Source: Rugalucina vietnamica (taxonomy: Eukaryota; Mollusca; Bivalvia; Lucinida; Lucinidae). From it: a DNA stretch of 64,000 nucleotides. The translations under genes were made by a program, and so were the position numbers. The notes beneath the pieces were generated by a model. That model was not told where the DNA came from and did no database searches. It was given only the letters and a program-made list of their open reading frames with translations. Location of the stretch: the NCBI GenBank assembly GCA_964017185.1, contig OZ024882.1, forward strand, positions 39,653,988 to 39,717,987, given 5' to 3'. Below are positions 18,675 through 62,010 of the stretch, in pieces. Each line of letters starts with the position of its first letter. Position 1 is the first letter of the stretch.

Positions 18675-19154
18675 TCTGTGAGTCCTGGTTTTTGATTCAT
18701 CAGGATGTTTATCATGATTTATTTGTTTGTTCTTGATGATTCATTGACTAGTTAGAGATTCACCACGAGGACCGAAGAACTAACTAAATGTTATGAACCA
18801 CTGCAGAAGCTGAGGGTGAGGTTATGGCCATGTAAAATCGATTTAAACCCGCCAGTAACTTTGTGTTACTGATCGTTTCAAGTCGATACTTCTGTGGTGG
18901 TTCTTTTTGTTTTATGTCTTGGTGTTTAAAATATTTTTGTGCTGTTGGCGCTTTATGTATGTTTTCATATTTTTAGTTAAGTTAAGGTAACTGAGTGGCC
19001 ACCTATTGGGAAAATAGCTGCTCATTCTGCTTACGAAATGTTTTCATGGTATAAGTACCTGATTGTTAGTTTGTTTTTTTCCCACCTCGGTTTTTGGAGT
19101 GGGAATCTTTTTCTGATCGCGCCTTTTCCTGATCTTTGCCTACTTGTACCTTTT
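18675..19154 (+). repeat. Family G retroelement 3' end, 5'-truncated copy
   Basis: It matches the 3' UTR of the element at 40162-41251, from CTGTGAGTCCTGG to the shared 3' end GCCTACTTGTACCTTTT. Confidence 0.85.
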
Positions 19155-28643: not shown

Positions 28644-28968
28644 TCGATATAATATATCATACGTATCAAATGGATCATAAAGTGAAGGCTCTAAAGAACA
28701 TTATATTAGCTGAGTGAGCAGCTATTTCACTAAAGGTGGACATACAATTACCTGAACTTAACTACTTCCGTGTGACTTCAGAAATCGACACCAAAACTTA
28801 AAACAAATACACGTAGGACCACAAAAGAAATACGACCCTGGGACATTGTGAAGCAATGAAAGTTGTGTATTCATGTGGATTTGCTTATTACATGTATCCA
28901 TTCTTTCACAAAAACGAAAACTACACCATAGATACAGCCTGCTATATGTCTTTAGTTTAGTTTAAGTG

Positions 28969-29067
28969 CCTAATTGTCAATTTAGTTTTTCCACACCTCG
29001 GTTTTTGGAGTGTGAATCTCTGTCTGACTGCGCCTTTTCCTGACCATTGCCTACTTGTACCTTTTAG
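28969..29067 (+). repeat. Family G retroelement, short 3' fragment
   Basis: It carries CACACCTCGGTTTTTGGAGT and the shared 3' end GCCTACTTGTACCTTTT. Confidence 0.8.
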
Positions 29068-32770: not shown

Positions 32771-33880
32771 GAACACAGATGAACATCTAATGGTTTATCT
32801 AAGGAGGTTTTAGAAAAATGTAAATATATATGCGTATCCCAGAGAAGGGGTTTCTTTTCGAAAGGCCGGCGTTTTGTAGCATCCCATATTATCTCCGAAG
32901 AATGTTTGCAGAGGTGGTTCATTAAATTCCAGTTTCACCACGGAGATATATAATGAAATGGCCAAAATATAACCCATCAATGGCCAGAATATCTATAAAT
33001 ACTGTAGCAGAGAGCGACTGAGGGGGTGAGATAAGCAGCCAGTGTGAGAGTTCCCTGCCTCTAACGGCACTTACATATTAAATTGAACGGTAGAAGAATT
33101 GTTTACCATGTAGGCATACGCCAAGGAAGATATATCGGTCCAGCCGCGCTCACATTTCACCAAATCTCTCTGAGACGGACTATTGGTGTGGTCATCCGGA
33201 TGTATACACAAACGCATGCATGATCTGGCCGTTTTCAAATCGTTAGATTCTCTACTGTGTACGTCATATCAGGAATCGACTTGCAGAATTTCAGCATGTA
33301 GGTTTCTAGCTGTTATCACCGCTGGTACATACAACAGCTGCATGGGTGATGATACAAAGGTGAAGAATGGAAACGGCCTCAAGTTGAAATAATCGTTAAA
33401 AATGACGAGATTGACTACGTTAAGATATTGACGTCAAGCGTCTAGAGGCGATGGCACATAGCCTCAGCACAAGGAATGGTAACAGATGCTAAACCACGAC
33501 ATATGCGATGTTCCTTCCGGTAGAATTAGGCACGTATCAAAAGAGAAAATACATAGGTGGTTTAACATAGCAACAATTTACTAAAGATTAATCATAAAGA
33601 GGGCGTAAAAATGTCATTGGAGCCGTCGATTGCTAAAAATCACACATTCTGCATTACGGCATTATGCCCTTGCTCCATAAATAGCGTTCATGCCAACATT
33701 ACATTAGTAGCGTTTTGTTGGGCCCAGAATGCTAGGACTGTATGCGAATTTTACAATGTAAAAATATACATGTATCTTTAAGTCATTCACTGAAGTGAAA
33801 GCCATAGCAAATGTTGAAAATTGGAAGTTACTAAATTCGTACATCATTTTGTGTTAGAGTGAATAATATAGTCTAACAAA
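32771..33880. other. Upstream region of the secreted-protein gene
   Basis: No exon recognised. TGACGTCA at 33429. No clear TATA box was identified near the 33881 ATG. Confidence 0.35.
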
Positions 33881-35075
33881 ATGGCTGGTTTGTCCATGAT
33901 TCTATTCATTACTATACTTTCTTTCAGTGTTCTAAGTATTTTTGGTACTCCAGATGTGTTTGTGGTAACAAAATCTCACAGGACGTCAAATGAACGTTCA
34001 CAACAAAGCCAGACTGACTTGCAGAAAGAAACTGGACATACTACACGCAGATTATTGGGAAAACCAGGTGATAGAAAATGGCGAAAACACCTATTGCCTG
34101 AACGCTTAAGAATATTGCAACACCAAGCGCCAGCTGAATTTCGCGCGTCACTTGACTGGCCACCCGGTGTTTTCCCCTCAGGAAATCCCAATGAAAGGAC
34201 GGCTAACAGAAGGACCAATGCTGCCCTAAACAGACCGATACATGTGATAGTCGGAAATACTCAAACTACGTCAACAACTGGCGTACATTCGTCAAAGTAT
34301 ACATTTTCAAGGGAAGCTACAGGCCAAAGAGCCATTAGAAAGAAACCAATAGGTGCTTCTTTTCATAGCAGTTCTATACAAGATTCCAATATGGTTTTGC
34401 CCGATGTTATGTCCACACCTAATTCAGCTGCCGACAATCTTACACCAAAGACACCTGTAGACGAGAGTGGCAGTAGACGCGATAACAAGCAACAGACGGC
34501 TCCAAACAATGGCAAGAGCATTATCGAGGGCCCAGATCAAATGACAGATAAAGCTTTTGACGGTAACGTTCTTTTCCATGTCCGAAATAGGTATTTTGTT
34601 GTGGTTCCAATTGTTGAAGTTTGTGCTGTTTGCACCTTATGTACGTTTTCATATTTTTAGTTAAGTTCGGGTAACTGAGTGGCCGCCTATTGGGAAATAA
34701 CTGCTCACTCAGCTTTCGATATGTTTTCTTAGTATAAGTACCTGACTGTCAAATTAGTGTTTTCCCATCTCGTTTTTTGGAGGGGGATTTCTTTCTGATT
34801 GCGCTGTTTCATGATCGTTGCCTACTTTTACCTTCGTATATATATAATAGTGGATATTATATGAAATTTTAGCTTTCTTCTGCTACGTCCTCTTTATGAT
34901 CACGTATTCTATTCCTTTTTCAGGAAAAGCTGATATAAAGAACGCACGAACACCTGACAGCAGTGCTGCGACAGTTGTAGGTTTATTGGCTGATGGTCTC
35001 TGTAGTTTGTGTTTGGAAAACGAAGGAATGGATTGTTCAAAAATACACTGTCAAATACAAAACCAAAATGTGTAA
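33881..35075 (+). CDS. Uncharacterised secreted protein, two exons
   Basis: Exon 1 is 33881-34562 and exon 2 is 34924-35075, giving 277 aa. The ATG sits in a good context (AACAAAATGG). Residues 1-22 are a hydrophobic signal peptide, probably cut near FG|TPD. The middle is polar, basic and probably disordered, with a dibasic RR near residue 57 and a low-complexity Thr/Ser/Asn region. The intron has donor GGTAACG and a pyrimidine-rich acceptor ending CCTTTTTCAG, and phases match. Exon 2 gives a short C-terminal domain with four cysteines (CSLC, then MDCSKIHC) and a TAA stop. Exon 1 also reads on into the intron for 32 codons, but that tail is partly a repeat copy (34614-34835), so the spliced form is preferred. 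I do not recognise the family. A peptide precursor or matrix protein is possible, but nothing proves it. Confidence 0.6.
34614..34835 (+). repeat. Family G retroelement fragment in the secreted-protein intron
   Basis: It matches the family 3' region (GTTTTCATATTTTTAGTTAA, GTAACTGAGTGGCCGCC) and ends near CCTACTTTTACCTT. It is older than the other copies. Confidence 0.8.
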
Positions 35076-36811: not shown

Positions 36812-36914
36812 ATGGCTTCTGTCAAACTAATGCGAATTGCTATTTAGGTGCAAAACGTTTCGCTGTTCAGTCACATTAGTCACATTGGTAGACTTAGACA
36901 CCTGATGAATATAA

Positions 36915-37218
36915 ATGTATACGCAGGCAAAGATCAGGAGAAGGCGCAATCAGAAAAAGATTTCCACTGCAAAAACCCAGGTGGGAAAAAACCAAACTAA
37001 CAATCAGGTACTTATACCATGAAAACATATCGTAAGCCGAATGAGCAGCTATTTTCCCAATAGGTGGCCACTCAGTTACCTAAACTTAACTAAAAATATG
37101 AAAACATACATAAAGCGCCAACAGCACAAAAATTTTAAACACCAAGACATAAAACAAAAAGAACCACCACAGAAGTATCGCCTTGGAACGATCAGTAACA
37201 CAAAGTTACTGGCGGGCT
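36915..37218 (-). repeat. Family G retroelement, 3' part, reverse orientation
   Basis: It starts at the family 3' end (GGCAAAGATCAGGAGAAGGC) and runs to GTTACTGGCGGGCTTA, where a 490-bp unrelated block begins. The copy resumes at 37711. Confidence 0.85.
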
Positions 37219-37226
37219 TAAAGCGT

Positions 37227-37710
37227 TCTTAAAGGATCTCAGTTTTATTTGTATTTGCTGTTACTGCAGCTGGTGTTGTGCCGTGTGGCGGCCCTAAAAA
37301 GTCTCCCCGTACATCATCCATAGTGCAGATTATATTTTCCTTTTGGTCCTTTGAGATCGGAGAGGATATTTTGAGAAATCAGAAAATTATCATATTCTAA
37401 CCAACGTTCAATATATTTGGTCCCATTTTGATTATACTAGTCTTTGTACCGACTAGCCTGCTGAAAGTTGAAAAATTACTGTAACTCTTTTTGGCTCCAT
37501 GTTGCCAAATCTAAAGGGTCAATGACGAGGCTTGAATAGCCGAAACCGCGGTATGACCCATCACCTTTCTCGAAAATATGCTCACTGCTCTTAAAGGATC
37601 TCAGTTTTATTTTTATTTGCTATTACTGCAGCTGGTGTTGTGCCGTGTGGCGGCCCTAAAAAGTCTCCCCGTACATCATCCATAGTGCAGATTATATTTT
37701 CCTTTTGGTC
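37227..37710. repeat. Two 122-bp direct repeats around 240 bp, inside family G
   Basis: Copies at 37227-37348 and 37589-37710 begin TCTTAAAGGATCTCAG (second copy CTCTTAAAGG) and end CCTTTTGGTC. They are nearly identical. The block replaces about 135 bp of the host element. Confidence 0.75.
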
Positions 37711-37911
37711 ATCCTGATGAATCAAAAACCAGGACTCACAGACTGGGTAAGCTGCGCGACGATGGAGATCCTTGGGCGCCGAATAACCTTCTAACTTCGG
37801 AGCAAAAGAAAAACACTAGTTGGACCCCGGTGGGCCAAGCAACAGACAACAACCGACTCCAACCAACTAAAATGAATAGCTTTAAATCGGGGGCCATCAT
37901 AGAGTCTGCCA
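37711..37911 (-). repeat. Family G retroelement, 5'-ward part, reverse orientation
   Basis: It runs from CCTGATGAATCAAAAACCAG to CATAGAGTCTGCC, matching 40608-40800 in reverse, and ends 9 bp from the lectin exon donor. Confidence 0.8.
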
Positions 37912-39125: not shown

Positions 39126-39333
39126 TTATGGGGACCTATGTTGGATCTGACAGACTCCTTTTTTAAAGGAGTCAAGATCAGCCCTAAGCACAAGTTCCGA
39201 GGGGAGCCTGTTCCAAAGAACAATTGTAGCTGGATAAAATGACTGCTGATAATAAGTTGTTCGAGTATGGATTTGTCTAAACGAGAGAGGGTGCATGTGA
39301 CGGGTTAATCGCTGGGGTTTCTCAAAGTATGTA
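39126..39333 (-). pseudogene. Non-LTR reverse transcriptase, C-terminal end (downstream part)
   Basis: The minus strand reads YFEKPQRLTRHMHPLSFRQI, then TRTTYYQQSFYPATIVLWNR and LPSELVLRADLDSFKKGV, with a stop at 39126. This is the usual C-terminal tail of Jockey/CR1-like elements. It continues the reading frame of the fragment at 47210-47394; the 7.9-kb element lies between them. Confidence 0.85.
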
Positions 39334-39757
39334 TGATAATAATTTTATTTACAGTCTATACACATTTTGTTTTATCTCTCTTTTTCTCAGGTTCATGTTT
39401 ATATATATTGTTTAAGGTTTTCTATAATATTGATAAGTTCTTTTAGGCCCAATAGGCATCTTGATCAGATTAACATAGTTAAATATGGTGACTGCACCTG
39501 CATCACACATGCATTAAGTTGGATAGCCTCTTAGTGGTGTTATGTAATTATGATTCTACTTCAGTAGTTTCTGTTATGTAATTATCTATAATTGTCTGGC
39601 CAGTGCAATGCTGATTCTACATCAAACAAGTTCTGTTATGTAATTACTTATAACTGTCTGGCTTAAAGTGGGTGTGTATCCAGTTTTTAACTGATAAGCA
39701 GTTCTTCTTTCAGTGTTCAAATTGCAGCTGTTTAATAAACATGTCTGTTTAAGCTAT
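39334..39757 (+). repeat. Repeat A1 of the 7.9-kb element
   Basis: It starts TGATAATAATTTTATTTACA and ends AATAAACATGTCTGTTTAAG plus CTAT. It is nearly identical to 46019-46440 and contains an internal duplication around GTTCTGTTATGTAATTA. Confidence 0.85.
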
Positions 39758-40147
39758 TATTATTCATGTGGAATTATTTAGGATTGAATTATTTTAGGAA
39801 TAAAATAACTTTTACTTCTAATATAAATAATTTAGTCCTAAGATGAGATGAATAATTATCATTATAAAGTTACACAATAAACTGTGTTGTAAGGATAATT
39901 GAGAAATTGAATTTATATTATAAGAAGTGTTATAATAATCATGGATTCATTTGAATGTCGGGAATTTATCCAATGTGGACGCCAACAGTAGGGTGACTGT
40001 GTAACTCTTTCTGTACTTTCATACAGGCGATCTAATAACTGTTGGAAATTGCTTCAAAAATGTAATATTCAGACATTTATGTTCGAAATAGATATTGAAA
40101 ATAAACATATAGTTTAAAGATGTGATGGCAGAAATCAACAGAAGAAC

Positions 40148-40161
40148 TTATCATCAACCTA
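40148..40161 (+). repeat. Target site duplication, left copy
   Basis: TTATCATCAACCTA, identical to 41252-41265. The two flank the family G copy. Confidence 0.9.
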
Positions 40162-40629
40162 CGTCGTGCTTCTTATGGTGTTTATATTTCACAACTTATT
40201 AGGTTTGCTAGAGTCTGCAATCATGTTACAGACTTCAACGCTCGAAATAAATGTTTAACGGCAAAACTTCTCCAACAGGGCTATCGGTATCATAAACTTC
40301 GAAAAACCTTTTCTAAATTTTATCGTAGACACTATGAATTGATTTCCAAATAAAATGTTGGATTAAAGACGCTTTTAAGTGAGGGCCTTTCGGAACCTGA
40401 ATTTTATGGTGACTTAGTTTACAAATTTAAGAAACTTATAGGAATGAATGATTTTTCTTTTCAGTTGAGAAAAATCATAACACGTTACAGACGTATAGGT
40501 TATAACTTGAATGTTATGCGACAGTCTGCATGCTTAGTTTTTAACCCAATCATGGTTGATAACTATGCTGCCTTCTTTAATTGCACGCCGGTGGGTCGGG
40601 CGTCAGACTCTATGATGGCCTCGACTTAA
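40162..40629 (+). pseudogene. C-terminal part of a retroelement reverse transcriptase protein
   Basis: It reads RRASYGVYISQLIRFARVC, then KLLQQGYRYHKLRKTFSKFY, EPEFYGDLVY and RQSACLVFNPIMVDNYAAFF, ending NCTPVGRASDSMMAST. I recall this C-terminal region from many bivalve RT-domain proteins, but its clade is not clear to me. There is one in-frame stop (TAA at 40351-40353) and no frameshift. The RT core itself is absent because of 5' truncation. Confidence 0.75.
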
Positions 40630-41251
40630 AGCTATTCATTTTAGTTGGTTGGGGCCGGAGCTTCTTGTCTGTTGCTTGGCCCACAGGGGTCCAACTGGTG
40701 TTTTTCTTTTGCTCCGGAGTTAGTAGGTTATTCGGCGCCCAGGGATCTCCATCGTCGGGCAGCTTACTCAATCTGTGAGTCCTTGTTTTTGATTCATCAG
40801 GATGTTTATCGTGATTTATTTGTTTGTTCTTGATGATTCATTGACTAGTAAGAGATTCACCACGAGGACCGAAGAACTTACTAAATGTTATGAACCACTG
40901 CAGAAGCTGAGGGTAAGGTTAGGATCCTGTAAAACCGGTTTAAGCCCGCCATTAACTTTGTGTTACTGATCGTTCCAAGGCGATACTTCTGTGGTGGTTC
41001 TTTTTGTTTTATGTCTTGGTGTTTAAAAAAAATTTTTGTGCTGTTGGCACCTTATGTATGTTTTCATATTTTTAATTAAGTTAAGGTAACTGAGTGGCCA
41101 CCTATTGGGAAAATAGCTGCTCATTCGGCTTACGATATGTTTCATGGTATAAGTGCCTGATTGTTAGTTTGGTTTTTTCCCACCTCGGTTTTTGGAGTGG
41201 GAATCTCTTTCTGATTGCGCCTTTTCCTGATCTTTGCCTACTTGTACCTTT
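40162..41251 (+). mobile_element. Family G retroelement, 5'-truncated copy with 14-bp target duplication
   Basis: 1,090 bp: the C-terminal 155 codons of an RT-type ORF, then about 620 bp of 3' UTR ending TGCCTACTTGTACCTTT. The perfect 14-bp duplication and 5' truncation fit target-primed reverse transcription. This copy defines the 3' end shared by the four other family G copies. Confidence 0.9.
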
Positions 41252-41265
41252 TTATCATCAACCTA
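41252..41265 (+). repeat. Target site duplication, right copy
   Basis: TTATCATCAACCTA directly after the family G 3' end. Confidence 0.9.
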
Positions 41266-41613
41266 AGATTCATAGCAAGACAACTGAGCAGAGCTCTTTA
41301 TACTACAGCTATGCATGGCAGAAGAAAATTACTATTCTTTGGATACCTATGCGGCAAAGAATGGTTAATTCAGTGCATTAACAGTATGAAGTTGTTGAGA
41401 AACATACCAATATATATACATTCATGTCATAAAGATTGAATCAACAGTGCCAGTGCCACATGCAGGCACTCAGGTCTACAACTAGCCGGTACAGATTGGT
41501 TTAATTTCCATGCAGTCACAGCATTCAAGTCTTTGTGGTGGAATCAAGTGTCAAAATATATTGTGTCATTATTATGTGTTTTCAAAGTGTAGTGTTTATA
41601 TAAAAGCAGAGCA

Positions 41614-41653
<40 letters not shown>

Positions 41654-42709
41654 CAGATATATCTATTCTGTGTAGTGTGTTTAAAGGAAGGAATCCTTCT
41701 TGTGTCAGCATCTTAAGGTCCGTGTTTTTCTCTATTAAAGTGGTAAAAAGTATTCCTTTGGTGGATGGTGGAATAAGTTTAGTCTTTAAGGTGTTTAAAA
41801 GTATTCTTTTGGTGGAAAAAGTTTATTCCTTAAGGGTTTAAAAGTATTCTTTTGGTGGAATAAGTTTAGTTCAATTCCTTTGGTGGAGTTAAAAAGAGAA
41901 AGTGTATAGCATCTGTGAAAAATTAGTGTCAGTGTTCTTCATCAATATCAGTGGTGTGGAAAGCTATATGCTTTCAGAAAGCAGAGTATTTGTGTTATAG
42001 TAATTCAGCAAGGAAATGTATTCTAGCAGTAATGAGCCAGTGTCACCAATCATGTTCCGTGGCTGCAAAAGCAGAAAGAAGGTTGTATTGCCAAATACGC
42101 ATTGATTTGCTGGTTCCCAATTTTCTGATTTTCGATATTGGGACAGGCAAATAACTGGGATGGACCCTCTCAGTTCGTCAATTGGGCAGTATTAGATACA
42201 CCTTCAGATATTGTCCGTTGGCTGGCTGAGGGGGTTTTGCTGGTTGCTTAGTATGTTTATTGTTTGTTTGCTATAAGCCTGCAAATGAGAGTGTATATGG
42301 TTATTTTATTAAGAATCGAGTATACATGTAATAAGATATAGTTTATTTGGATAGCTCATCAAGCCTCCAAAGAACTGATTCAGTCATAGAAATGTTTAGA
42401 CATTACATATCAAATTGCATGTGAAGAAATGTTGGTAGAATGTATCATAGATAATGATCAGAATAGCTATTTTGTCAGTCTGGAGAAGTATTTCAGTCAA
42501 AAAATCTTTATCACAGGTAGAAATGTATTTTCTTGTGTGTTGGATGAAGTAAGAAGTTAAACTAAAGATGACTTCATTCAGCTGACAATGCAATTGATCT
42601 AATTCTTAAAACTATCACTGGTGACAATTCTAATACTGCTGGAAATACATGTGGGGTCTCAAATTAAGACATTCAGCTGTCATGTTCTGAATATCATGTT
42701 TGCAATTTT

Positions 42710-42740
<31 letters not shown>

Positions 42741-43080
42741 TAGCAAGTAAGTAAGTAATTTTAAAAGTAGGTAAATAAGTAAGTAAGTATTTTATTTCTT
42801 TTAGGGTAACAACATTTAACATTTACGAAATTTCAGTGCTTGATCTAATGTCTTGACACCATACTGGTTTACATCCTTTGAAAAAGGGAACAGCATAAAT
42901 TTGCTATATTTATGGCTGAACCAATATCAGACTGCCGAAGCTCATGAACATTCCAGGCTTAATTTGCATTCCTGACTGTTACCAATTTTCAAGAATTGTC
43001 TCTGAGGTTTCATGACCCTTATTCTGCACATGTTCGCTTCTCGCCTATGTCTAAACTCCAAATAGTCTGATAGTCTGAAT
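41266..43080. other. Interior of the 7.9-kb element, mostly non-coding
   Basis: It holds (ATT)n at 41618-41650, four repeats of AGTATTCTTTTGGTGGAATA-like words at about 41750-41885, the short RT-linker-like frame at about 42150-42240, and a (TAAG)n tract at 42711-42790. Confidence 0.5.
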
Positions 43081-43084
43081 CATG

Positions 43085-43900
43085 CTCCATTTCATGTTGT
43101 TCGCACTAAGAGATAGCACCGTTCATGCACTAAAAGATTGCACCGTTTATGACTCTGGGTGGAATATAATCTGCACCATTTCATGCCGGATGCCTAGGAT
43201 ATATACAGCACAGCTTATAACCTATAAATGATCCTAACTAAGCCATGATTTCTTCACACATTCTACAGCATTGTGTCTCAAGTGCAAAATATTCTATTTC
43301 ATGCTCAAAGTACACTGATCAGTTATGAGATAGCACCGTTCATTCCTGAATCTCAAGCCTCTGTGTGGAAAAAATTTGCACCATTCATGCCTGAATCTAA
43401 GAAGGTGAGACAGCTCTAATCTTGCCTGATACTCATATTCCATAAAGACAGCACCATTCATGCCTGATGAATTTTAAACCTCAAGAGGTATGACCCCATT
43501 TCATGCTCCGTTTCATGCATGATTAGGCTCGAGATAGCACCGTTCATGCCTCAAGTCTCAGCCTCTGGGTGGAATCCTATCTGCACCGTTTCATGCCTGA
43601 ATCCAAGGCTCCAAGGCACTTCATGCCCGACGCTTGGCCTTTGGTCATGAGACGCACCGTTCATGCCTCAGACCCATTATATTCCCCAGCAACATGTCAA
43701 GAGACATAGCCCGTCTCCTCTGACATTTTTCATACTCAAGTCAAGAGATAGCCCGTCATGCCTCATATTCTCCTCTGACTTTCAGGGGTCATACCTATCA
43801 AGAGATTTCACTTTCATGCCTCAAATCTCAGATTTTCATTCAATCCAAACTTATTTCATGCTTCCTCTCAGGGCTTCATACATTCTTCATTGGCTGGTTA
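43085..43900. repeat. Degenerate repeats around GCACCGTTCATGCC
   Basis: A dozen or more variants of GATAGCACCGTTCATGCCT, TCAAGCCTCTGGGTGGAA and related words at irregular 40-120 bp spacing. The same words occur once in repeat B (CTTCATGCACCGTTTCCATG). Confidence 0.6.
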
Positions 43901-45418
43901 GGATCATGGGCCCATGAAACACCTCAGGACAAACCTACTACAGTATAATGAATTTGAACCTACAGCTTGGGTGTGCAATCTCATGAGTTTGGGGAAGTCG
44001 CAGATAAGCAAACAATGCATAGATATTAGAGTGTCTAAGTTCTGGCCATGGCAGGTATCATAGGATGCATGTCTTATATTTGACATTTAGAGATCACATG
44101 AACAATCTTGTAGAAGTTCAGAATCATTTTCAATTGAAGACCATGGAGTTTTCATGATAATGGGTAGGGCATGTACCACATTTTCTACCCATTAACCAGA
44201 TGCATTGACTTAGATCAGATATGTAGTCTTCAATTTCAGGTTGAAAGTTGGGCTATATACATATATTTATATGATGTACAATAGGCTATACAGGGGCAGG
44301 TTATGATGGTGTTAGGTTTGACTTTCTAATGTTATGTTTTCTTACGACAATAGGTGCACCTTCAGTTATTCATACATAGTAATAGATGTTAAACACATGG
44401 TGGAATCAAACTGAAACCATCTAGTTAAAAGGAATTAAAGTCAGCCTCCTTTATTTGTCATCTTAAGACACACCTTAAGTTTAAGACTGTGTTGGGTCCC
44501 ACCAATGGCTAGTCATACCAAGCTGAATATAGTTTATTTCATAATTCATATATTAAGTAAGTAAGTGAGTTATTTGCTTGACCTGCTTTAGTGTTGTGTA
44601 ATAATATTGTCTCATATTCGCACCATGATATCCTACTTCTGCTGGTGCCGGGTTGTGTCCTAGGGTAAATATACAAGGAAACATCGAAAAAATTGTTGAC
44701 AACCACGTTAAATAACATCAACTTACATTAGGATCAAACAGCTTATGAGTGGATCGAACACAGGACCCATTAATAATGTATTGGATTTTGTCTTTAAAAA
44801 TGCCTCTATTTGATAGTCTTCAACCTTTCAAAGTGTGTACGCTGAGGATTTACATCCCATCATCAGCTAGTGTAATGTCCTGCTTGAACCTTGTTAACAA
44901 TTTGTTCTCATGTCTCGTCTGGATAACACAAAGTTAGGGTTGGCTCCTGCCAACATGACTGGGATGTTAAACCTCAAAACAACAAACAAAGAATGGGCAT
45001 TTACGTCAGAACTTTGTTTCAAACTTATAAGTTACTGTTAAATTAGGGACAATGATTTCTGTCTTCACTGTCATAGTTATATTCGTACATCAGTATAATG
45101 ATTTGTTTCCCATTACTGGCAGTAAAACCACGGTTTCCACGAATTTTTCTCCAAAAAGGAGTTTTTTATATGTGGTTTTAGCCCAGGCTTTTCTGCCTTA
45201 TAATGGGTCACAAGAGGAGACCAAATTTTGCTTTCATTGTTTTCTTTCAGTTTTGTATAAATTGGTGTAGAATTGGAAGAACACAATGAGTAGCTGGTCT
45301 GAAATTTATTACAATCTTACATGCATTATCTATTACACTAAGTTACTCATTTATTCATTATTGCAATCATGGCTCTAATTTTTTGGGGGGCCTCACTTGC
45401 TACCGCAAATTCGTTTGG
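43901..45418. other. Interior of the 7.9-kb element, no intact gene
   Basis: A minus-strand B-box-like word (GGATCGAACACAGGACCC, 44754-44771) suggests a SINE remnant. Otherwise nothing is recognised. Confidence 0.35.
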
Positions 45419-46017
45419 CCTTCTTTACCACCAAAATATCATGCTTTATCAAGCAAGTAGGCAAAAGTCAGGCTAACCTGAGTATGGGATCTACCTAACT
45501 TAGCATTAGCAATGTTCATATCACGTTTATTCTTTCTGTTCAACAATTCAGTACCATGTCTGAGACTGCAATTCAGAGTCGAGCTTTTATTCAAAAGGCA
45601 AGCAAGCATTACAATCCAAGTCAAGGTGACCTATTCACTCTTGTTCATACTTCAGACAACACCATGATGGGCATAATTCTTATGCTTGGAAAGTCCACTC
45701 TTCATGCACCGTTTCCATGCTTGCTACAGCCTTAAGGTGGAATCGATACACTGATTCTGACCTGCATACACAGTTTTAGTAGTCCGACTATATAGGGTTG
45801 ATCCCCAGGTTAGCCAAAGCAACTCAAGATAGTGGAAGTGAGCTGCCCCCAAGAAAGAGCCAAAGTTGTGAGTTTTTAATTTTATGTAAATTGTAGAAAA
45901 TTATTTAGATTGTGTTTCAAGTGTTAAGTTTTAAGCATTAGAAATTATGGTTAGTACATTATGTTAATTATATGAATAAACTATGTCTAAATTTATCAAC
46001 TTGTTATTGTGTATAAA
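45419..46017 (+). repeat. Repeat B1 of the 7.9-kb element
   Basis: It starts GCCTTCTTTACC and ends TTGTTATTGTGTATAAA, with ATGAATAAACTATG near the end. It is nearly identical to 46619-47209. Confidence 0.85.
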
Positions 46018-46018
46018 A

Positions 46019-46440
46019 TGAGAATAATTTTATTTACAGTTTATACACATTTTGTTTTATCTCTCTTTTTCTCAGGTTCATGTTTATATATTGTTTAAGG
46101 TTTTCTATAATATTGATAAGTTCTTTTAGGCCCAATAGGCATCTTGATCAGATTAACATAATTAAATATGGTGACTGCACCTGCATCACACCTGCATCAA
46201 GTTGGATAGCCTCTTAGTGGTGTTATGTAATTATGATTCTACTTCAATAGTTTCTGTTATGTAATTATCTATAATTGTCTGGCCAGTGCAATGCTGATTC
46301 TACATCAAACAAGTTCTGTTATGTAATTACTTATAACTGTCTGGCTTAAAGTGGGTGTGTATCCAGTTTTTAACTGATAAGCAGTTCTTCTTTCAGTGTT
46401 CAAATTGCAGCTGTTTAATAAACATGTCTGTTTAAGCTAT
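46019..46440 (+). repeat. Repeat A2 of the 7.9-kb element
   Basis: It starts TGAGAATAATTTTATTTACA, directly after B1, and differs from A1 at only a few positions. Confidence 0.85.
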
Positions 46441-46618
46441 CCCACCTGCCATCCCCAGCACCTCCAGTAGGTATATAAAGTTTATACATGAATTTCTGTC
46501 TGGCGTCTTAAATTTCAATTATGAGATATCTTTATTTTGCTTTTTAGTAATTTATAGATCTGTAAATTTAAGTAAACTCTGATTCAGTCTTTGGGGTAGT
46601 TTTCTTCTATCATCCGCC

Positions 46619-47209
46619 AGCCTTCTTTACCCCCAAAATATCATGCTTTATCAAGCAAGTATGCAAAAGTCAGGCTAACCTAAGTATGGGATCTACCTAA
46701 CTTAGCATTAGCAATGTTCATATCACGTTTATTCTTTCTGTTCAACAATTCAGTACCATGTCTGAGACTGCAATTCAGAGTCGAGCTTTTATTCAAAGCA
46801 TTACAATCCAAGTCAAGGTGACCTATTCACTCTTGTTCATACTTCAGACAACACCATGATGGGCATAATTCTTATGCTTGGAAAGACCACTCTTCATGCA
46901 CCGTTTCCATGCTTGCTACAGCCTTAAGGTGGAATCGATACACTGATTCTGACCTGCATACACAGTTTTAGTAGTCCGACTATATAGGGTTGATCCCCGG
47001 GTCAGCCAAAGCAACTCAAGGTAGTGGAAGTGAGCTGCCCCCAAGAAAGAGCCAAAGTTGTGAGTTTTTAATTTTATGTAAATTGTAGAAAATTATTTAG
47101 ATTGTGTTTCAAGTGTTAAGTTTTAAGCATTAGAAATTATGGTTAGTACATTATGTTTATTATATGAATAAACTATGTCTAAATTTATCAACTTGTTATT
47201 GTGTATAAA
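46619..47209 (+). repeat. Repeat B2 of the 7.9-kb element
   Basis: Near-identical to B1, with one short deletion (AAAAGGCAAGCA region). It ends at the junction with the reverse transcriptase fragment. Confidence 0.85.
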
Positions 47210-47394
47210 TGGTATCTGTATTGCCACATGGCCATAGATGATTTTATAAAACATAATGAGTCTGGAGTCATATATATACGCCGATTTTCAAGCGAACGCC
47301 AACCTAGGCTGTCAAGCATAGATGTGACACTGTCATACGGAGAATAGTTGTTTTTGACCCATCTGGCAGCTCGTCTTTGTATCATTTCAATTTT
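47210..47394 (-). pseudogene. Non-LTR reverse transcriptase, C-terminal region (upstream part)
   Basis: The minus strand reads PKIEMIQRRAARWVKNNYSP, then SVTSMLDSLGWRSLENRR, and stops matching at 47210 where the inserted element begins. It is truncated on its 5' side near 47394. Confidence 0.85.
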
Positions 47395-48558
47395 AGGATA
47401 TTATATACGATGCTTATGATAAAATTAAACTTGAGATGTATTGTTTAATGATATTAACTAGAGTTGCTTAGTTTCAAATGTTTTTAAATTATAAGATTTG
47501 GACGAACTCTCTCGTTGACCTATTTATCGTTTTTTTATCGGAAAACGATCCATATGAAATTATGTTGTTCCAATACAGTGTTCTCTTTCACGTCCGCTGT
47601 ACAGAGATGATTGACATGCGGTATCACGAATTAACGGAGTGGACCGAAACTCTCCGAAACGAACCAAAACTGAAAGTATGTTCACAGAAAACGTCAACAT
47701 AAAATGTAACATGTCTACAGACATGTATTATTTCACATTTTTTGTATATAGAGTATATCTAGGTGAATATCCGAGATATTTTGCCAGTGTTATTTACAAA
47801 ACAAACAGCTAAGGCAAAGTCTGGATCACACTACCCCTAACCAAGCCTCATGGATGCAGATTTATGGGGTTTCAGTTTAACCTCACTTTTTAAGATTATA
47901 CCATTTGGGTCACGTGCTAGCAGATTTTGGCTCTTAGATTTACCGGATTCACACTGTCCTTCCATTATTGCTTGATTCTGTGATATTTAGTTTTTTTCTT
48001 ATTGCTTGATTCTGTGATATTTAGTTTTATTCTGATTGGCCTTAGCAAAATCAAACTTTCATCATGTATTTTAAATCTTTGTTTGGAGACTCAGAGCATC
48101 TAATCAGGTTAGGCACCAGCACGCTATACAACTTCGGGTCACTCAGATAGCAAGAATATATGTTTGAAATTTTGAATAAAACTTGCTTTGCTGATGGAAT
48201 TTTACATATGTTTGTTTGTTTCTTTTAAGTTTTAAAGATCAAGTCAACAATTTTTCAGACGTGGTGATGAATTCATTCACAGTATCTGTTTTATTTGGTA
48301 TCAAAATGCATTATACGTTACTATTCTTCTTGTCGGTGTAGACTTCTGTCACAATCTCATATTATTTTGAACTTCCAAATAACACTGTCTATTTCCAACC
48401 AAAAGATAACATTGTAATGAGGTTGCTGTTTATAGGGATCAAACATGATTTTCCATTTATTAACATTTGCTAGGTCCCGAGGGGAATGTTTTCAACACTC
48501 CCCAAGGGACTGACAAAATCATTTTGATCCCTATTATAAATTCTGCACAGACAAAAAT
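47395..48558. other. No supported gene; weak hairpin at the right
   Basis: An open frame at 47478-47702 has protein-like composition but no recognised domain or splice partner. At 48434-48537 an imperfect palindrome (AGGGATCAAA ... TTTTGATCCCT, inner GGGGAATG/ACTCCCC) resembles the other hairpin elements. Confidence 0.35.
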
Positions 48559-49858
48559 AAGAGCTGTCGCAGGACAGCGTAGCTCGCCTGACTTGTGCTT
48601 TGACACTACATCTGTTAAAATCTATGACCCATGACCTTGACCTCAAGGTCACTCAGGTGGGTCATGATGGTACAACATAAAACTTCAGACCAATGCAAAG
48701 TATCAACTTGATCAATCTACATGTTCAAGAGATATAGACTTATTAAAACATTAACCAAAGCTTAAACACAAAACTTCCAAGTCTGTGACCCTGACCTCAA
48801 GGTCATCCAGGTGAGTTGTGATGTACAGCATAAAACCTGAGACCAATATCTATCAACATGCAAGTATCAACTTTATCCATCAACATGTTCAAGAGATTAA
48901 GACTTTAACCAAAAAATTTAACACAAAATTTCTAAGTCTGTGACCTTGACCTCAAGGTCATCGAGAGTGGATCATGATGGTACTGCATAAAACTTCAGAC
49001 CAATATCTAGCAACATGCAAAGTATCAAGTCAATCCATCAATATGGTCAAGAGATATAGACATACAAAAACTTCAACCAAAAACTTAAACACAAAATTTC
49101 TAAGTCCGTGACCTTGACCTCAAGGTCACCCAGGGTGGGTCATGATGGTACTGCGTAAAACTTCAGACCAATATCTAGCAACATGCAAAGTATCAACTCA
49201 ATCCATCGATATGGTAAAGAGATATAGACTTACAAAAACTTTAACCAAAAACTTATTAAAACACAAAATTTCTAAGTCTATGACCTTGACCTCAAGGTCA
49301 CCCAGGGTGGGTCATGATGGTACTGCGTAAAACTTCAGACCAATATCTAGCAACATGCAAAGTATCAACTCAATCCATCGATATGGTAAAGAGATATAGA
49401 CTTACAAAAACTTTAACCAAAAACTTATTAAAACACAAAATTTCTAAGTCTATGACCTTGACCTCAAGGTCACCCAGGGTGGGTCATGATGGTACTGCGT
49501 AAAACTTCAGACCAATATCTAGCAACATGCAAAGTATCAACTCAATCCATCAATATGGTCAAGAGATATAGACTTACAAAAACTTTAACCAAAAACTTAT
49601 TAAAACACAAAATTTCTAAGTCTGTGACCTTGACCTCAAGGTCACCCAGGGTGGGTCATGATGGTACTGCGTAAAACTTCAGACCAATATCTAGCAACAT
49701 GCAAAGTATCAATTTGATCCATCAACATGGTCAAGAGATATAGACTTATAAAAAACTTTAACCGAAAGTGTGACGCGGACGTAAACATACACGTACACGT
49801 AAACGGGGACGACCGAGGTGACTACAATAGCTCTATGCACTTCGTGCAGGCGAGCTAA
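48559..49858 (-). repeat. Family C element with six to seven core units of about 172 bp
   Basis: Caps: TAAGAGCTGTCGCAGGACAG (stem GCTGTC/GACAGC) and CTCTATGCACTTCGTGCAGG (TGCAC/GTGCA). The core units each carry TGACCTTGACCTCAAGGTCA or a near variant. Units starting at 49142, 49314 and 49486 are exactly 172 bp apart and almost identical. The repeated 62-codon frames in them are by-products. Confidence 0.85.
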
Positions 49859-51309: not shown

Positions 51310-52310
51310 AACCAGAGGACCAATGGTCCTGCAAACGCTCACCTGAGACCTGAGATATATACCAAAAAACTTAGTTGACTAGAATGGTAATAAATGTATA
51401 TAACCCCAGGGCAGGGTCAGAGCAAACCCTGGAGTGAATTTCTTTTTCAAATCATAAAAATTCAGTCCATTTGCCAATTTATTGCAAGTTCTGCCCTTCA
51501 AATGACATTTTAACAATTTTCCCCATTCAAATGCATGGGCAACCTAAGTTGACCTTGCCATAAAATAGGTCAAGGTCATCCAAGGGTCATGATTTATAAA
51601 AACTTTGTAGAACTTGATTGCCTGGTGCTTCATGCCAAGTTTCAAAATCATAGGCCTTCTGGTTCTGGAGAAGAAGATTTTTACAGGTTTTTGCTATTGA
51701 TAACCATGGCGGCCATCTTGGTCATGTGACCTTGACCATTTATACAAACTTTCATTGCCCCTTCCTAACGATCCTCCACATAAAGTTTAACTTTGATTGG
51801 CCGCGCAGTTTCAGAGCAGATGATGTTTGAATATTATGGTCTTGTACATATATATAGCCCAAGGGCAGGGGCAGACAACCCCATGGTGACAATCATGTTT
51901 TTTTTTCATTAACATAAATATTCTGTCTATTTGTCCATTTCCTGCAAGTTTTGCCCTTCAAATCATATTTTAACAATTTTCTCCAATCAAAAGCATGGGC
52001 GACCTATGTTGACCTTGCCATAAAATAGGTCAAGGTCATCCAAGGATCATGATTTATACAAACTTTGTAGAGCTCAATTGCCTAATGCTTCATGCCAAGT
52101 TTCAAAATCATAGGCCTTCTGGTTCTGGAGAAGAATTCTTTTTTAAAGGTTTTTGCTATTTATAGCCATGGCGGCCATCTTGGTCATATGACCAAGACCA
52201 TTTATATAAACTTTCATTGCCTCTTCCTAAGGATGCTCCACATAAAGTTTGGCTTTGATTAGCCAAGCGGTTTCAGAGGAGAAGTTTGAATATTATGGTC
52301 ATATACATGT
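51310..52310 (-). repeat. Family A element, reverse, truncated on its head side
   Basis: It starts at the right cap (ACCAGAGGACCAATGGTCCT) and has two core units, each with AATAGGTCAAGGTCATCCAA and ATGGCGGCCATCTTGG. Confidence 0.85.
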
Positions 52311-52639
52311 TTCTTGCACACCAGATAGAGAAATCCTACGTTTTACCCCATGTGAGAAATTCTTTTCTCACATACCTCTATCATAAAGATAGAAAAATTC
52401 CGGTATTTTAGTGGTGGTAGATAAATCGATCTTACACTGCTGGCTTGGTTGCTCATACAAGATAAGAAAAGCACGCAGCTAAATTCGATCGTTTCTAGCC
52501 CAAAGCAGCTTCTTGCAGCAATAATGTTCAACAAAACTAGACTAAATTGGTGTGAATTCATTAGGTATAATCTTGATTCACGCTTGTTTTCAACGAAAAA
52601 CAAATCAAACTGCATCTCTTTTGACTTTGACAACGATTT

Positions 52640-53760: not shown

Positions 53761-55223
53761 AACCAGAGAACCAATGGTCCTGCAAACGCTCACCTGAAAC
53801 CCGAGATATATACTAATAAACTTGTTTGACTAGAATGGTACTATACATGTATAAAACCCCAGGGCCGGGTCAGAGCAACCCCTGGAGTCAATTTCTTTTT
53901 AAAATCATAAAACTGCAGTCCATTTGCCAATTTACTGCAAGTTTTGCCCTTCAAATGACATTTTAACAATTTTCCCCATTCAAATGCATGGGCGACCTAA
54001 GTTGACCTTGCCGTAAAATAGGTCAAGGTCATCAAAGGGTCAAGATTTACATAAACTTTGTAGATGTCCCATTGCCTGATGCTTCATGCCAAGTTTCAAA
54101 ATCATAGGCCTTCTGGTTCTGGAGAAAAAGATTTTTAAAGGTTTTTGCTATTTATAGCCATGGCAGCCATCTTGGTCATGTGACCTTGACATTTATATAT
54201 ACTTTCAATCCCACTTCCTAACAATGCTCCTCATAAAGTTTGGCTTTGATTGGCCAAGCAGTTTCAGAGAAGAAGATCTTTGAATATCACTGTAATATAC
54301 ATATATATTGCCCCGGGGTGGGGGCAGACAGACCCCTGGGGTCCAAATTTTTTCAGAATCATCAATCTTAAGTCCATTTGCCCATTTCCTGCAAGTTTTT
54401 CCCTACAAATGACATTTAAACACCTTTCCCCATTCAAATGCATGAGCGACCTATGTTGACCTTGCCGTAAAATAGGTCAAGGTCATCCCAGGGTCATGAT
54501 CTATATAAACTTTGTAGAGCTCCAGTCACTGATGCTTCACACCAAGTTTCAAAATCATTGGCCTTCTGGTTCTGGAGAAGAAGATTTTTAAAGGTTTTTT
54601 CTATTTATAGCCATGGCGGCCATCTTGGTCATGTGACCTTGACTATTTATATAAACTTTCTTTCCCCCTTCCCAAGGATGCTCCATATGAAGTTTGGCTT
54701 TGATTGGCCAAGTGGTTTCAGGGGAGAAGATGTTTCATTATTATGAAAAATATACATGTATATAGCCCCGGGGCAGGGGTAGACAACCCCCCAGGGGCTA
54801 AAATTTTCCATTAACATTAATCTTTTGTCCATTTGCCTATTCCCAGTAAGTTTTACCCATTAAACAGCATTTTACCATTTTTCCCATTCAAATGCATTGG
54901 AGACCTAAGTTGACCTTGTCTTACAATAGGTCAAGGTCATCCTAGGGTCATGATTTATAAAAAACTATGATGAGCCCGCGTCCCCGATGCTACATACCAA
55001 GTTTCGTGGAAATCGGCCTACTGGTTCTGGAGAAGAAGATTTTTAAAGGTTTTTGCTATTTATAGCCTTGACGGCCATCTTGGTCATGTGACCTGGACCA
55101 TTTATATAAACTTTCGTTCCCCCTTCCTAAGGATGCTCCACATGAAGTTTGGCTTTGATTGGCCAAGCCGGAGCATGGGTATACTATAAGCTCACCTGTG
55201 AGCCTTCGGCTCAGGTGAGCTAA
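53761..55223 (-). repeat. Family A element, reverse, three core units, both caps present
   Basis: It runs from ACCAGAGAACCAATGGTCCT to the head hairpin AAGCTCACCTGTGAGCC / GGCTCAGGTGAGCT at 55190-55223. Each core carries AATAGGTCAAGGTCATC. Confidence 0.85.
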
Positions 55224-58080: not shown

Positions 58081-58507
58081 CATGTCATCTTATTTCTCAA
58101 CACACAAGCACTTGCATACACAACAATTTCATCACACTTGCACCCACATACCTACAAAGTCCTGTGGCGATGGGCGAGTGGCGAAGCAGCAGGTGTAGGA
58201 CACACTGGGAGCTGTAGTTGCAGACCTGCACACAGGCGGCTCAGTTCTAATGGTCGTTTTCTGTGAGGAGAAGCAGTAAGCAGAATTCGGCAGTCGGCTG
58301 AGCGACTGAGCAGACCTATTTAGGACCGCACTGCTCACCCCCGTAGCATGGGGAAGGGGCTAGAAAAGGTGCCCTAAACAATTGCCTGCTTCAAACCCCC
58401 TGGCTGGTTAACCGCGATCAGCGGGGATCCCCTTAAGCGGTCGAAATACAAAGAAAAAAGCTAGAGTAATCCCCTTACGGATTGGCGCATGGAATGTGCG
58501 TACTTTA

Positions 58508-61500
58508 ATGGACAATGCTGGGTCAGATAGACCACAGCGTAGAACGGCCCTTGTGGGCAGAGAACTTGGGAGGTATGATATACAGATAGCTGCATTGAGT
58601 GAGACTCGTTTCGCAGATGTTGGGGAGATCAAAGAAGTTGGTGCTGGATACACCTTCTTCTGGAGTGGACGCAAAAGTGAAGAGAGGCGTGAAGCAGGAG
58701 TTGGCTTTGCCATCAAAACAGAACTTGTTGGTAAGCTGTCAGGATTGCCAAAAGGCATTAATGACCGTCTAATGACATTGAGACTTCCTCTGTCAGGCAA
58801 TAAACATGCAACTATTGTCAGTGCTTATGCACCCACATTGACCAATCCAGATGAGGTCAAGGACAAGTTCTATGATGACCTAGACAATGTTATTTCTGCA
58901 ACACCCCGCACAGACAAGCTTATCCTTCTTGGCGACTTTAATGCCAGAGTGAGTACAGACCACCAGACCTGGGAAGGAGTTATAGGTCCAGAAGGGGTTG
59001 GAAAGTGCAACAGCAATGGTCTCTTGCTTCTCAGGAAGTGTGCTGAACATGACCTTCTAATCACCAACACAGTCTTCCGCCTACCTAATAGGAACAAAAC
59101 ATCCTGGATGCATCCCCGTTCCAAACACTGGCATCTCATAGACTATGTCATAGTGCGGAGAACAGACAGGCAGGATGTTAAAATGACAAAGACTATGTGT
59201 GGTGCAGACTGCTGGACAGATCATAGACTGGTTGTCAGCAAACTCAACCTAAGAATACAGCCTGCGAGGCGACCTCAAGGCAAGAAAGCTCCTAAGAGAC
59301 TGGATGTCTCAAAGCTGAATAAAGACAGCATGAGACAAGATTTCTTAACAGACATTTGCAACCAACTGGATGCAATGAATCTCAGTTCAGAGGACCCCGA
59401 AGAAAACTGGACAGTTTTCCATAAAACAGTTCTTTCTTCAGCTGCAAGCACCTTAGGCCATCCATCTCGCAAACATCAAGACTGGTTTGATGAGAATGAT
59501 GACGAAATTCAGAGGCTTCTTGAAGAAAAGCACCGATTGCACAAGGCACATCAAGATGATACTAGCTCAGTATCAAAGCAGCCTACAGCAACATTTGTAA
59601 GACAGTTCAGACCAAGCTTAGGGACATGCGATTCCTGGCTGAGGAAGAAAACAGAAGAAATTCAGTCTTTTGCGGATAGAAAGGACATGAAGAAATTTCA
59701 TGATGCACTGAAAACCATTTATGGTCCAAAGAGTTCTGGAGCCACCACATTGCTCAGTGCAGATGGAAACACTCTTCTCACAGATAAAGAAGCTATCTTG
59801 GAAAGGTGGGCAGAACACTTCAATAGTGTGCTTAATCGACCATCAAGCATCAATGAGGATGCAATCGACAGACTTCCACAGATAGAGTGCAATGTTCTGT
59901 TAGATGAATTTCCTACCGTTACGGAAACAAGAAAAGCAGTTCAACAACTATCATCTGGCAAAGCCCCAGGTGCAGATGCAATTCCTGCCGAAGTTTACAA
60001 GGCTGGGGGGCTACCCATGGCAGAGAAACTGACAGAGTTGTTTCACTGTATGTGGAGAAAGGAGGCTATTCCACAAGAATTTAAGGATGCATCCATAATC
60101 CACCTATACAAGCGGAAAGGAAATCCTCAAGTCTGTGACAATCACAGAGGCATCTCCCTCCTATCAATTGCTGGGAAGATACTTGCAAAAATTCTGTTGA
60201 ATCGTCTGAATGTTCATCTTGATCAGACGGGACTTATCCCAGAAAGTCAATGTGGATTCAGAAAAGACAGAGGGACAATAGACATGATCTTCACAGCAAG
60301 ACAGCTTCAGGAGAAATGCCAAGAACAGAATGAAGATCTATACATGACGTTTGTTGACCTCACCAAAGCTTTTGACACTGTTAGTCGTGATGGACTCTGG
60401 AAAATCATGGCCAAGTTTGGCTGTCCACCCAGATTCATAGCAATGGTGCGGCAGTTTCATGATGGCATGCAGGCACGTGTGCAAAATGATGGAGAGTTCT
60501 CTGAACCATTTGAAGTAACAAATGGCGTCAAACAAGGCTGTGTTCTGGCACCAACACTGTTCAGCATGATGTTTTCTGCCATGCTTATGGATGCTTTTCA
60601 GGACAGTGACACTGGTTTTCCAATCAGGTACCGTTTTGATGGCAACATATTCAACCTCAGAAGGTTGCAAGCCAAAACTAAGGTCCAGACTGATGTGCTA
60701 GATGAGCTCCTCTATGCAGATGATATGGATAAGAATGCCAGCACAGAGGCAAAAATGCAAAGAGCCATGGATCAAGTCTCACAGTCATGTGATAACTATG
60801 ATCTCACAATCAGCACAAAAAAGACAGAGGTTGTACACCAACCAGCGCCCGGAAAGCCATTGACACGATCGGCGTGACGTCATAGGTCATAGTACGAGGT
60901 GAATTCCTCGGTGTTTATCGCTGTAACCTTACTGAATTAAAATCAGAAAATATGAAAACAAAATAAAAATATTTATAAAAGCTTTGCGTGTCTTTTTATA
61001 TTTTCATTATTTATTCAACTCAAGGTATGAACCCCGTTATTATTCTGACAAATTATGATTTTATAAGCGTCTAAAAATGATTGAATTACAGCGATATTGA
61101 CCGAGTTATACCCTCGACCGAATGAGCGAAGAGGTGGGAAAGGTGCAGTTCCGGTAACCAATATTGATTTTTTTCAAACGAAAGAGTAGCTTGCCGACCG
61201 GTTCAATATAATGAACCAACCATCACTGTGAATGGGCAAAAACTGAAAGTTGTTGACAAGTTCACCTACCTGGGAAGCACTCTCTCCAGAGCAGTGCATA
61301 TTGATGATGAGATCACTGCCAGAATTGCAAAGGCTAGTGTGGCATTCGGACGACTCCGTGCAAATGTCTGGGAGCGAAATGGAATCAAGCTTGACACCAA
61401 GCTGAAAGTCTACAAGGCTGTGGTACTGCCAACCCTCTTGTATGCATGTGAGACCTGGACAGTATACCAATGCCATGCAAAGAGACTTAACCATTTCCAC

Positions 61501-62010
61501 TTAAGCTGTTTGAGAAAGTTGTTAAAAATCAAGTGGCAGGACAAGATTCCAGACACAGAGGTCCTGACGAAAGCAGGGATGCAAAGCATGCATACAGTCT
61601 TAAAGCTAGCACAGCTAAGATGGACTGGCCATGTTATAAGAATGCCTGATGCGCGACTTCCAAAGAAAGTTTTCTATGGAGAACTACAGGAGGGAAAGCG
61701 CTCTCAAGGTGGCCAGAAGAAACGCTACAAAGACACCCTCAAAGCCTCTCTGAAGGGGTCCTGGGAACAGACTGCACAGGAGCAATCAAAGTGGCGAGGT
61801 CTCATCAACAAAGGGGCAGCTCTTTATGAAAAGAAGAGAATCTGTGAAGCTGAAAGAAAGCGAAAAGAGCGCAAAGCCAAAACAAATGTGCCACCATCAG
61901 ACTCTATGACATTGACTTGCTCTACTTGCAACCGACAGTTTAGAGCCAGAATTGGCCTAGTCAGCCATCAAAGAACTCACCAACACACATCAGCACTATT
62001 CAAGAAATAA
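58508..62010 (+). pseudogene. Endonuclease-reverse transcriptase ORF of the non-LTR element, interrupted
   Basis: The frame is open from after a TAA near 58410, but the first ATG is at 58508, after the endonuclease start motif WNVRTL (about 58487), so the normal initiation site is missing or non-AUG. Endonuclease motifs in order: SETRF, SAYAPT, GDFNAR, DYVIV, TDHRLV. RT motifs: GKAPGADAIP, HRGISLL, GFRKDRGT, FVDLTKAFDTV, NGVKQGCVLAP and the catalytic YADD near 60713. A stretch at about 59575-59635 reads better in another frame, suggesting two compensating indels. After YADD the frame enters the 345-bp insertion and stops at 60877. The thumb and C-terminal part resume after 61206 and end at 62010 with a CxxC...HxxxH zinc finger (CSTC ... 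HQRTH). Confidence 0.9.
60861..61205. mobile_element. 345-bp TIR element inserted in the reverse transcriptase ORF
   Basis: The ends are inverted: TGACACGATCGGC on the left, and the reverse complement of the right end is TGAACCGGTCGGC. Flanking AT dinucleotides suggest a 2-bp target duplication. Further in, the arms share TATCGCTGTAA in inverted order. The left end holds a TGACGTCA palindrome (60875-60882). There is no coding capacity, so it is a MITE. The host ORF resumes directly after it. Confidence 0.7.

Follow-up and report, generated by a model that had tools for sequence, protein, structure and literature searches.

In the lucinid bivalve Rugalucina vietnamica, a 64,000-nucleotide stretch of contig OZ024882.1 (positions 39,653,988 to 39,717,987 of assembly GCA_964017185.1; hereafter the window, in whose own numbering all positions are given) contains a 7.9-kb insertion at 39333-47209, which carries no recognisable protein gene of its own and lies in an old transposon. 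Two repeat types, A and B, and a spacer, C, are arranged in it in the order A1, interior (I), B1, A2, C, B2. We tentatively read this as one insertion of a large non-coding split-direct-repeat retroelement, A1-I-B1A2-C-B2, which an autonomous retroelement of the tyrosine-recombinase type (PAT-, Ngaro- or VIPER-like) would have moved in trans, a reading whose chances we put just short of even. It is nearly balanced by the reading as two abutting units, and the single element is slightly preferred because one insertion suffices and because the exact abutment of B1 and A2 is predicted by it.

Layout of the insertion and its target site

The window was searched for repeats and compared with itself by blastn, and the insertion and its target were divided into the following parts:

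39333-39757, plus strand: A1, left outer repeat, 425 bp, starting with ATGATAATAATTTT and finishing with AATAAACATGTCTGTTTAAGCTAT
39758-45417, plus strand: interior I, 5660 bp (about 4.56 kb once a nested LINE tail is subtracted together with one of its two target-duplication copies), without a long frame
45418-46017, plus strand: B1, internal copy, 600 bp, finishing with TTATTGTGTATAAA
46018-46440, plus strand: A2, internal copy, 423 bp, directly adjoining B1
46441-46619, plus strand: C, spacer between A2 and B2, 179 bp
46620-47209, plus strand: B2, right outer repeat, 590 bp, with AATAAA at 47167
39141-39332, minus strand: target, downstream half of the C-terminal frame of a LINE reverse transcriptase
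47210-47400, minus strand: target, remaining (upstream) half of this LINE frame; frameshift near 47270
39333-39335, 46018-46020 and 47209-47211, plus strand: ATG at the left, B1/A2 and right junctions, candidate 3-bp shared core or duplication

A1 and A2 are 98.1% identical over 425 columns, differing by six substitutions and a single 2-bp gap, and B1 and B2 are 97.0% identical over 600 columns, with eight substitutions and a single 10-bp gap; zero bases separate B1 from A2. The substitution rates are alike in both pairs (6/423 in A, 8/590 in B; Fisher p = 1.0), and with about 1.4% between repeats the copy is young. Equal divergence of the two pairs is required if they arose in one event, although two family members would show the same. 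A preliminary description of this stretch had claimed two repeat types in the order A1, interior, B1, A2, B2, and we recovered the same arrangement with edges at most one base from those claimed and a spacer of 179 instead of 178 bp.

No further copies of A or B were found in the window (blastn, E 1e-3), and C gave no second match there when 178 of its 179 bp were used (blastn). Exact-pattern scans of viral contigs for the end of B and for the interior of A gave no match in either case. We rejected the possibility that A and B are diverged copies of each other, since 74 and 72 of 100 shuffles scored equally, as well as a derivation of C from the interior, since its alignment to the native interior was matched by 48 (plus strand) and 20 (minus strand) of 100 shuffles. 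Two matches were not built on, namely 17 bp shared by C and A2 (equalled by 4/100 shuffles) and 38 columns over which B1 aligns to the interior's opposite strand (equalled by 4/60). A also contains an AATAAA of its own, 18 bp before its inner end (39734 in A1, 46417 in A2).

The minus-strand flanks are consecutive parts of one frame, which we take to be the C-terminus of a LINE-type (long interspersed nuclear element) reverse transcriptase, and they join in phase (...FYKIIYGHVAIQIP / TYFEKPQRLTRHMHPLS...; ...AIQIP/TYFEKPQ...). The arrangement is real and, as an insertion into a LINE, of mobile origin. Neither of the two flank pieces matched a Pfam family. Scans of viral and prokaryote sequences with the joined LINE peptide gave no relative among 12 candidate stretches and a single match out of 62, to 16 residues of a metagenome-assembled genome, which we judged to be due to chance. 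The LINE frame contains a frameshift some 60 bp away from the join, which may be older or younger than the insertion, and a stop just upstream of its readable part; if the LINE was already dead at the time of insertion, the in-frame join may be accidental, with a one-in-three chance.

An ordinary target duplication of 4-6 bp is absent at the repeat edges. The ATG found at all three junctions may represent a shared core or a duplication, in either case of 3 bp, the sequence fitting both alike. Matches of 4-5 bp between the flanks, at most 8 bp from the edges, occur in 11 placements, none of which leaves either edge at the repeats or the LINE frame intact. One of them, GTAT, is placed symmetrically 2 bp outside both edges; with 11 such placements in the area searched, we consider this pair unremarkable and left our estimates unchanged. 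Of the clean empty-site join proposed earlier, the in-phase junction of the LINE frame stands, while the absence of duplicated bases does not follow, given the threefold ATG, the GTAT pair and the possible one-in-three accident.

Coding content and composition of the interior

Between 39200 and 47400 there are 60 stop-free pieces of at least 45 aa, of which 19 whole pieces and part of another one were scanned against Pfam; of the 42 pieces that are confined to the element and do not belong to the nested LINE, 14 are in this set. None of the 20 scanned pieces reached the Pfam cut-off, and neither a reverse transcriptase, an RNase H or a tyrosine recombinase nor a Rep-helicase was found among them. 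The longest stop-free run to the right of the nested LINE has 88 aa, a length reached by 150 of 200 shuffles, and no tRNAs were found. Because the repeats differ by only 1.4%, yet the frames are no longer than in shuffled sequence, the interior was probably non-coding when the copy moved: at such a small distance, a coding interior should still be visible. For the same reason we rejected a decayed autonomous interior. The preliminary description had assumed decay and had proposed a search for RT-RNase H (reverse transcriptase-RNase H) and tyrosine recombinase domains, which yielded none among the scanned pieces of this copy.

Degenerate repeats and a tetranucleotide microsatellite occur in the native interior, which also shares short motifs with B1:

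43117-43667, plus strand: within the native interior, irregularly arrayed motif CACCRTT/CACCRTTYCATGC, found again in B at 45707, with GGTGGAA at 45736 (B1)

With words chosen by eye, the pattern CACC[AG]TT[TC]*CATGC was counted seven times in the native interior and once in B1, always on the plus strand, and not at all on either strand of the 56 kb outside the insertion. GGTGGAAT occurs on the plus strand of the element, six times in the interior and once in B, and once outside the insertion, whereas TTCATGCC, with eight copies in the interior and 14 in the rest of the window, is not element-specific. Because plus-strand motifs are common to both and absent or nearly absent outside, the interior and B1 look like one tract.

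The interior also holds a nested LINE tail, which is a separate insertion and not part of the element:

40162-41251, plus strand: nested 5'-truncated LINE tail (C-terminus of the reverse transcriptase and 3' untranslated region)
18675-19154, 34620-34834 and 28960-29065, plus strand: further fragments of the nested LINE
36913-37238, 37710-37908 and 28708-28764, minus strand: further fragments of the nested LINE

The tail is flanked by a perfect 14-bp target duplication (40148-40161 and 41252-41265). Five of the other pieces in the window are 86-94% identical to it over 106-482 bp, and the last one listed aligns over 58 columns at 79%. At the end of its reverse-transcriptase frame, a match to the Rfam model SECIS_1 was observed (40604-40671, plus strand; 36.9 bits against a gathering score of 35) which shows an AUGA, AAA, GA core. 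The second LINE copy at 37710-37908 (minus strand) has kept the ATGA and AAA, but gave no SECIS_1 match up to E 1. The match is either a selenocysteine-type signal in the 3' untranslated region of the LINE or due to chance.

One split-direct-repeat element or two abutting units

The internal block of split-direct-repeat retroelements serves, in the replication models proposed for them, to restore ends lost from the RNA. In the present case, an RNA reaching from within A1 to the AATAAA in B2 would lose the extreme ends, and the internal B1A2 block would template them back during reverse transcription, resulting in a circle in which B joins A. Integration would then follow through a tyrosine recombinase acting on this B-A junction and on a short target of identical sequence, perhaps ATG, and would create no ordinary target duplication. 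Such a single event is supported by the repeat order and the exact abutment of B1 and A2, which are those of split direct repeats, by the flanks rejoining a single LINE frame, by repeat lengths close to those of TATE and by the motifs that the interior shares with B1. In a model of DIRS1-like integration, a 3-bp junction of the circle recombines with a target of the same sequence and no bases are duplicated (PMC3266345); the presence of ATG at the left end, the B1A2 junction and the right end would suit this model. VIPER and TATE are described as leaving no target duplication, and the short form of VIPER, SIRE, as covering A2 and B2 (PMC12278014). The sequence between A2 and B2 has a precedent as well, since in nematode-form PAT elements and Kangaroo the internal block is located between the methyltransferase and tyrosine recombinase genes, making a gap before B2 normal (PMC4157794); the architecture of the 3' part, which the preliminary description had called unusual, is therefore not so for PAT. 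Recombination between A1 and A2 would leave a lone A-C-B, as the one-element reading allows.

A number of observations weigh against a single split-direct-repeat element. In addition to the missing domains in the scanned pieces and the chance-level frame length described above, taking ATG as the core leaves B1 with one more A before the ATG than B2 and puts the empty LINE out of frame, and the symmetrical GTAT pair lies just outside the repeat edges. The AATAAA within both copies of A could end the proposed RNA early, only a single copy was observed in the window, and an inverted repeat at Helitron2-like offsets lacks an explanation under this reading. The latter feature involves the following sequence:

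46040-46049, plus strand: TTTATACACA, the inverse of the 10 bp that end B (46008-46017 and 47200-47209), present in A1 with one mismatch at 39355-39364

This inverted repeat belongs to the alternative that two non-autonomous members of one family, A-I-B (39333-46017) and A-C-B (46018-47209), stand head to tail with shared ends and different cores, which we regard as a real possibility but lean against. It agrees with the room for a tandem dimer left by the preliminary description, and that explanation has gained by the new feature. The likeliest engine for these units would be rolling-circle transposition of the Helitron2/Helentron type, read on the minus strand with the reverse complement of B as the 5' end, as this mode leaves no target duplication and tolerates exchanged cores. 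In this orientation, the 5' terminus starts with TTTATACACA (offset 0), and the inverse copy is found at a distance of 22 bp from the 3' terminus. These positions fit the asymmetric terminal inverted repeats (ATIRs) of Helitron2, which are described with a 5' offset of 0-2, a 3' offset of about 20-30 bp, a length of 8-15 bp and a 5' T (PMC3627910). The repeat thus stands at the offsets of an ATIR, with 10 bp in A2 and 8 bp in A1. At these offsets, 3 of 20000 shuffles attained the 10 bp of A2 and 88 the 8 bp of A1; with either orientation allowed, the counts rose to 8 and 115. When 20000 pairs of places were drawn at random from the window, again in either orientation, 10 bp were attained by 3 pairs and 8 bp by 35. 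These figures apply a rule that was known only after the repeat had been noticed, and if the offsets are disregarded, the repeat is weak (15-59 per 1000 shuffles for A2 and 150-428 per 1000 for A1, depending on the length of end tested).

Rolling-circle transposition looked like the best explanation at one stage, but was demoted because the hairpin folds are no better than chance. The fold of the 5'-terminal 60 nt of the second unit (B2) was equalled by 11/200 shuffles (z -1.97), but this value comes mainly from a separate 7-bp hairpin at nt 37-55, which carries a mismatch in B1 (z +0.41 for its 60 nt). The ATIR would pair within the initial 30 nt of the 5' end; these do form a fold, with z +0.41 in both B copies, and the hairpin at the 3' end is no better than in shuffles (z +0.45 to +0.79). 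Helentron-associated interspersed elements (HINEs) are reported to prefer T-rich sites (PMC4067079, PMC7492417), but the target on the minus strand is A^A, neither T-rich nor TT. The HINEs of oysters are described as lacking target duplications, as sharing in some cases their flanks around unrelated cores, and as possibly standing in tandem as whole elements (PMC7492417); A-I-B and A-C-B would resemble them in their shared flanks, and the degenerate repeats and microsatellite of the native interior would be in keeping with such an origin. The lack of a Rep-helicase in the scanned pieces speaks against it, as does the requirement for two events hitting one place.

A product of recombination or replication slippage between integrase-type LTR (long terminal repeat) or TRIM-like (terminal-repeat retrotransposon in miniature) copies, circularly permuted so that BA represents the repeat, appears improbable. 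The biv-TRIM elements of bivalves do occur in tandem, but have repeats of 202-218 bp (PMC6934838). An ATG duplication of 3 bp would recall the unusual LTR group Troyka, but the repeat edges are ATG...AAA, neither TG...CA nor the CG...CG reported for Troyka (PMC12440569). The 4-bp GTAT pair would fit a duplication, although it belongs to the 11 flank matches that all displace both edges from the repeats and disrupt the LINE frame, and C is not an interior remnant by alignment. The LTR-interior-LTR order, the TG...CA ends and the 4-6 bp duplication at the edges that mark integrase-type LTR elements were not found; the GTAT pair lies 2 bp beyond both edges.

Should the insertion be a single split-direct-repeat copy, it would indicate which sequences are required in cis, as the repeats and the B1A2 junction have been retained without the genes. 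We suggest, with clearly more doubt than confidence, that it represents a wholly non-coding split-direct-repeat retroelement and thereby a tyrosine-recombinase counterpart of the LARDs (large retrotransposon derivatives) known among LTR elements, in which B1A2 was kept, the 179-bp spacer replaced the recombinase gene and the minimal cis requirements would be A, B and the B1A2 junction. Among the matches listed for literature titles on split-direct-repeat and tyrosine-recombinase non-autonomous elements, no fully non-coding large split-direct-repeat element appeared. If the insertion consists of two abutting units, it is a warning that head-to-tail elements with shared ends can mimic split direct repeats, a feature by which tyrosine-recombinase retroelements are recognised.

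Neighbouring features and relation to known systems

Further observations concern the remainder of the window:

58412-60877 and 61168-62010, plus strand: frames of 821 and 280 aa, by eye LINE-like with endonuclease and reverse transcriptase (YADD)
998-2327, 4618-5475, 51310-52317 and 53761-55168, both orientations: a repeat of about 450 bp in dispersed arrays, about 70-92% alike (first 60 pairs among the matches listed)
9270-9694 and 48902-49767, opposite orientations by eye: arrays whose unit measures 170-172 bp, sharing similar words (ATGACCCACCCTGG and its inverse), taken from a partial consensus
33872-34660, plus strand: stop-free frame of 262 aa with a signal-peptide-like start by eye

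Compared with known systems, the insertion shares with the Helitron2/Helentron-derived HINEs of oysters an inverted repeat with offsets of 0 (5') and 22 (3'), the 5' T, the lack of a clear duplication, and a non-coding nature with shared ends around different cores. It differs from them in the lack of a significant 5' or 3' hairpin at the ATIRs, in its target, which is not T-rich, and in the size of its shared ends (425 and 600 bp, against a right flank consensus of 60 bp). The biv-TRIM elements are likewise non-coding, bivalve and known in tandem, but their 202-218 bp repeats surround a core of 77-80 bp in ordinary LTR order.

Among the split-direct-repeat retroelements, PAT, Ngaro and VIPER are described with the order A1-B1A2-B2 (PMC4157794, PMC6681497), and TATE of L. 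braziliensis with an A of 381 bp and a B of 294 bp (PMC6681497). Membership of PAT, Ngaro or VIPER is judged by RT-RNase H and a tyrosine recombinase, and because these are missing from the scanned pieces, the element is not filed under any of them; the Ngaro/PAT-type identity proposed in the preliminary description is nevertheless supported in part, since the repeat order, the exact B1A2 junction, the equal divergence and the absence of a 4-6 bp duplication at the edges are features expected of such an element. Unlike in Ngaro, VIPER and TATE, A2 does not touch B2 and no coding sequence was found, while A1 at one end, B1-A2-B2 at the other and repeats of a few hundred bp are common to all of them. 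From PAT it differs in that no gag, reverse transcriptase, methyltransferase or recombinase gene was found and that the gap of 179 bp holds no long frame. With the nematode-form Pat1 and Kangaroo, which have the DIRS order, it nevertheless shares both the arrangement A1...B1A2...B2 with sequence between A2 and B2 and the expected lack of an ordinary target duplication.

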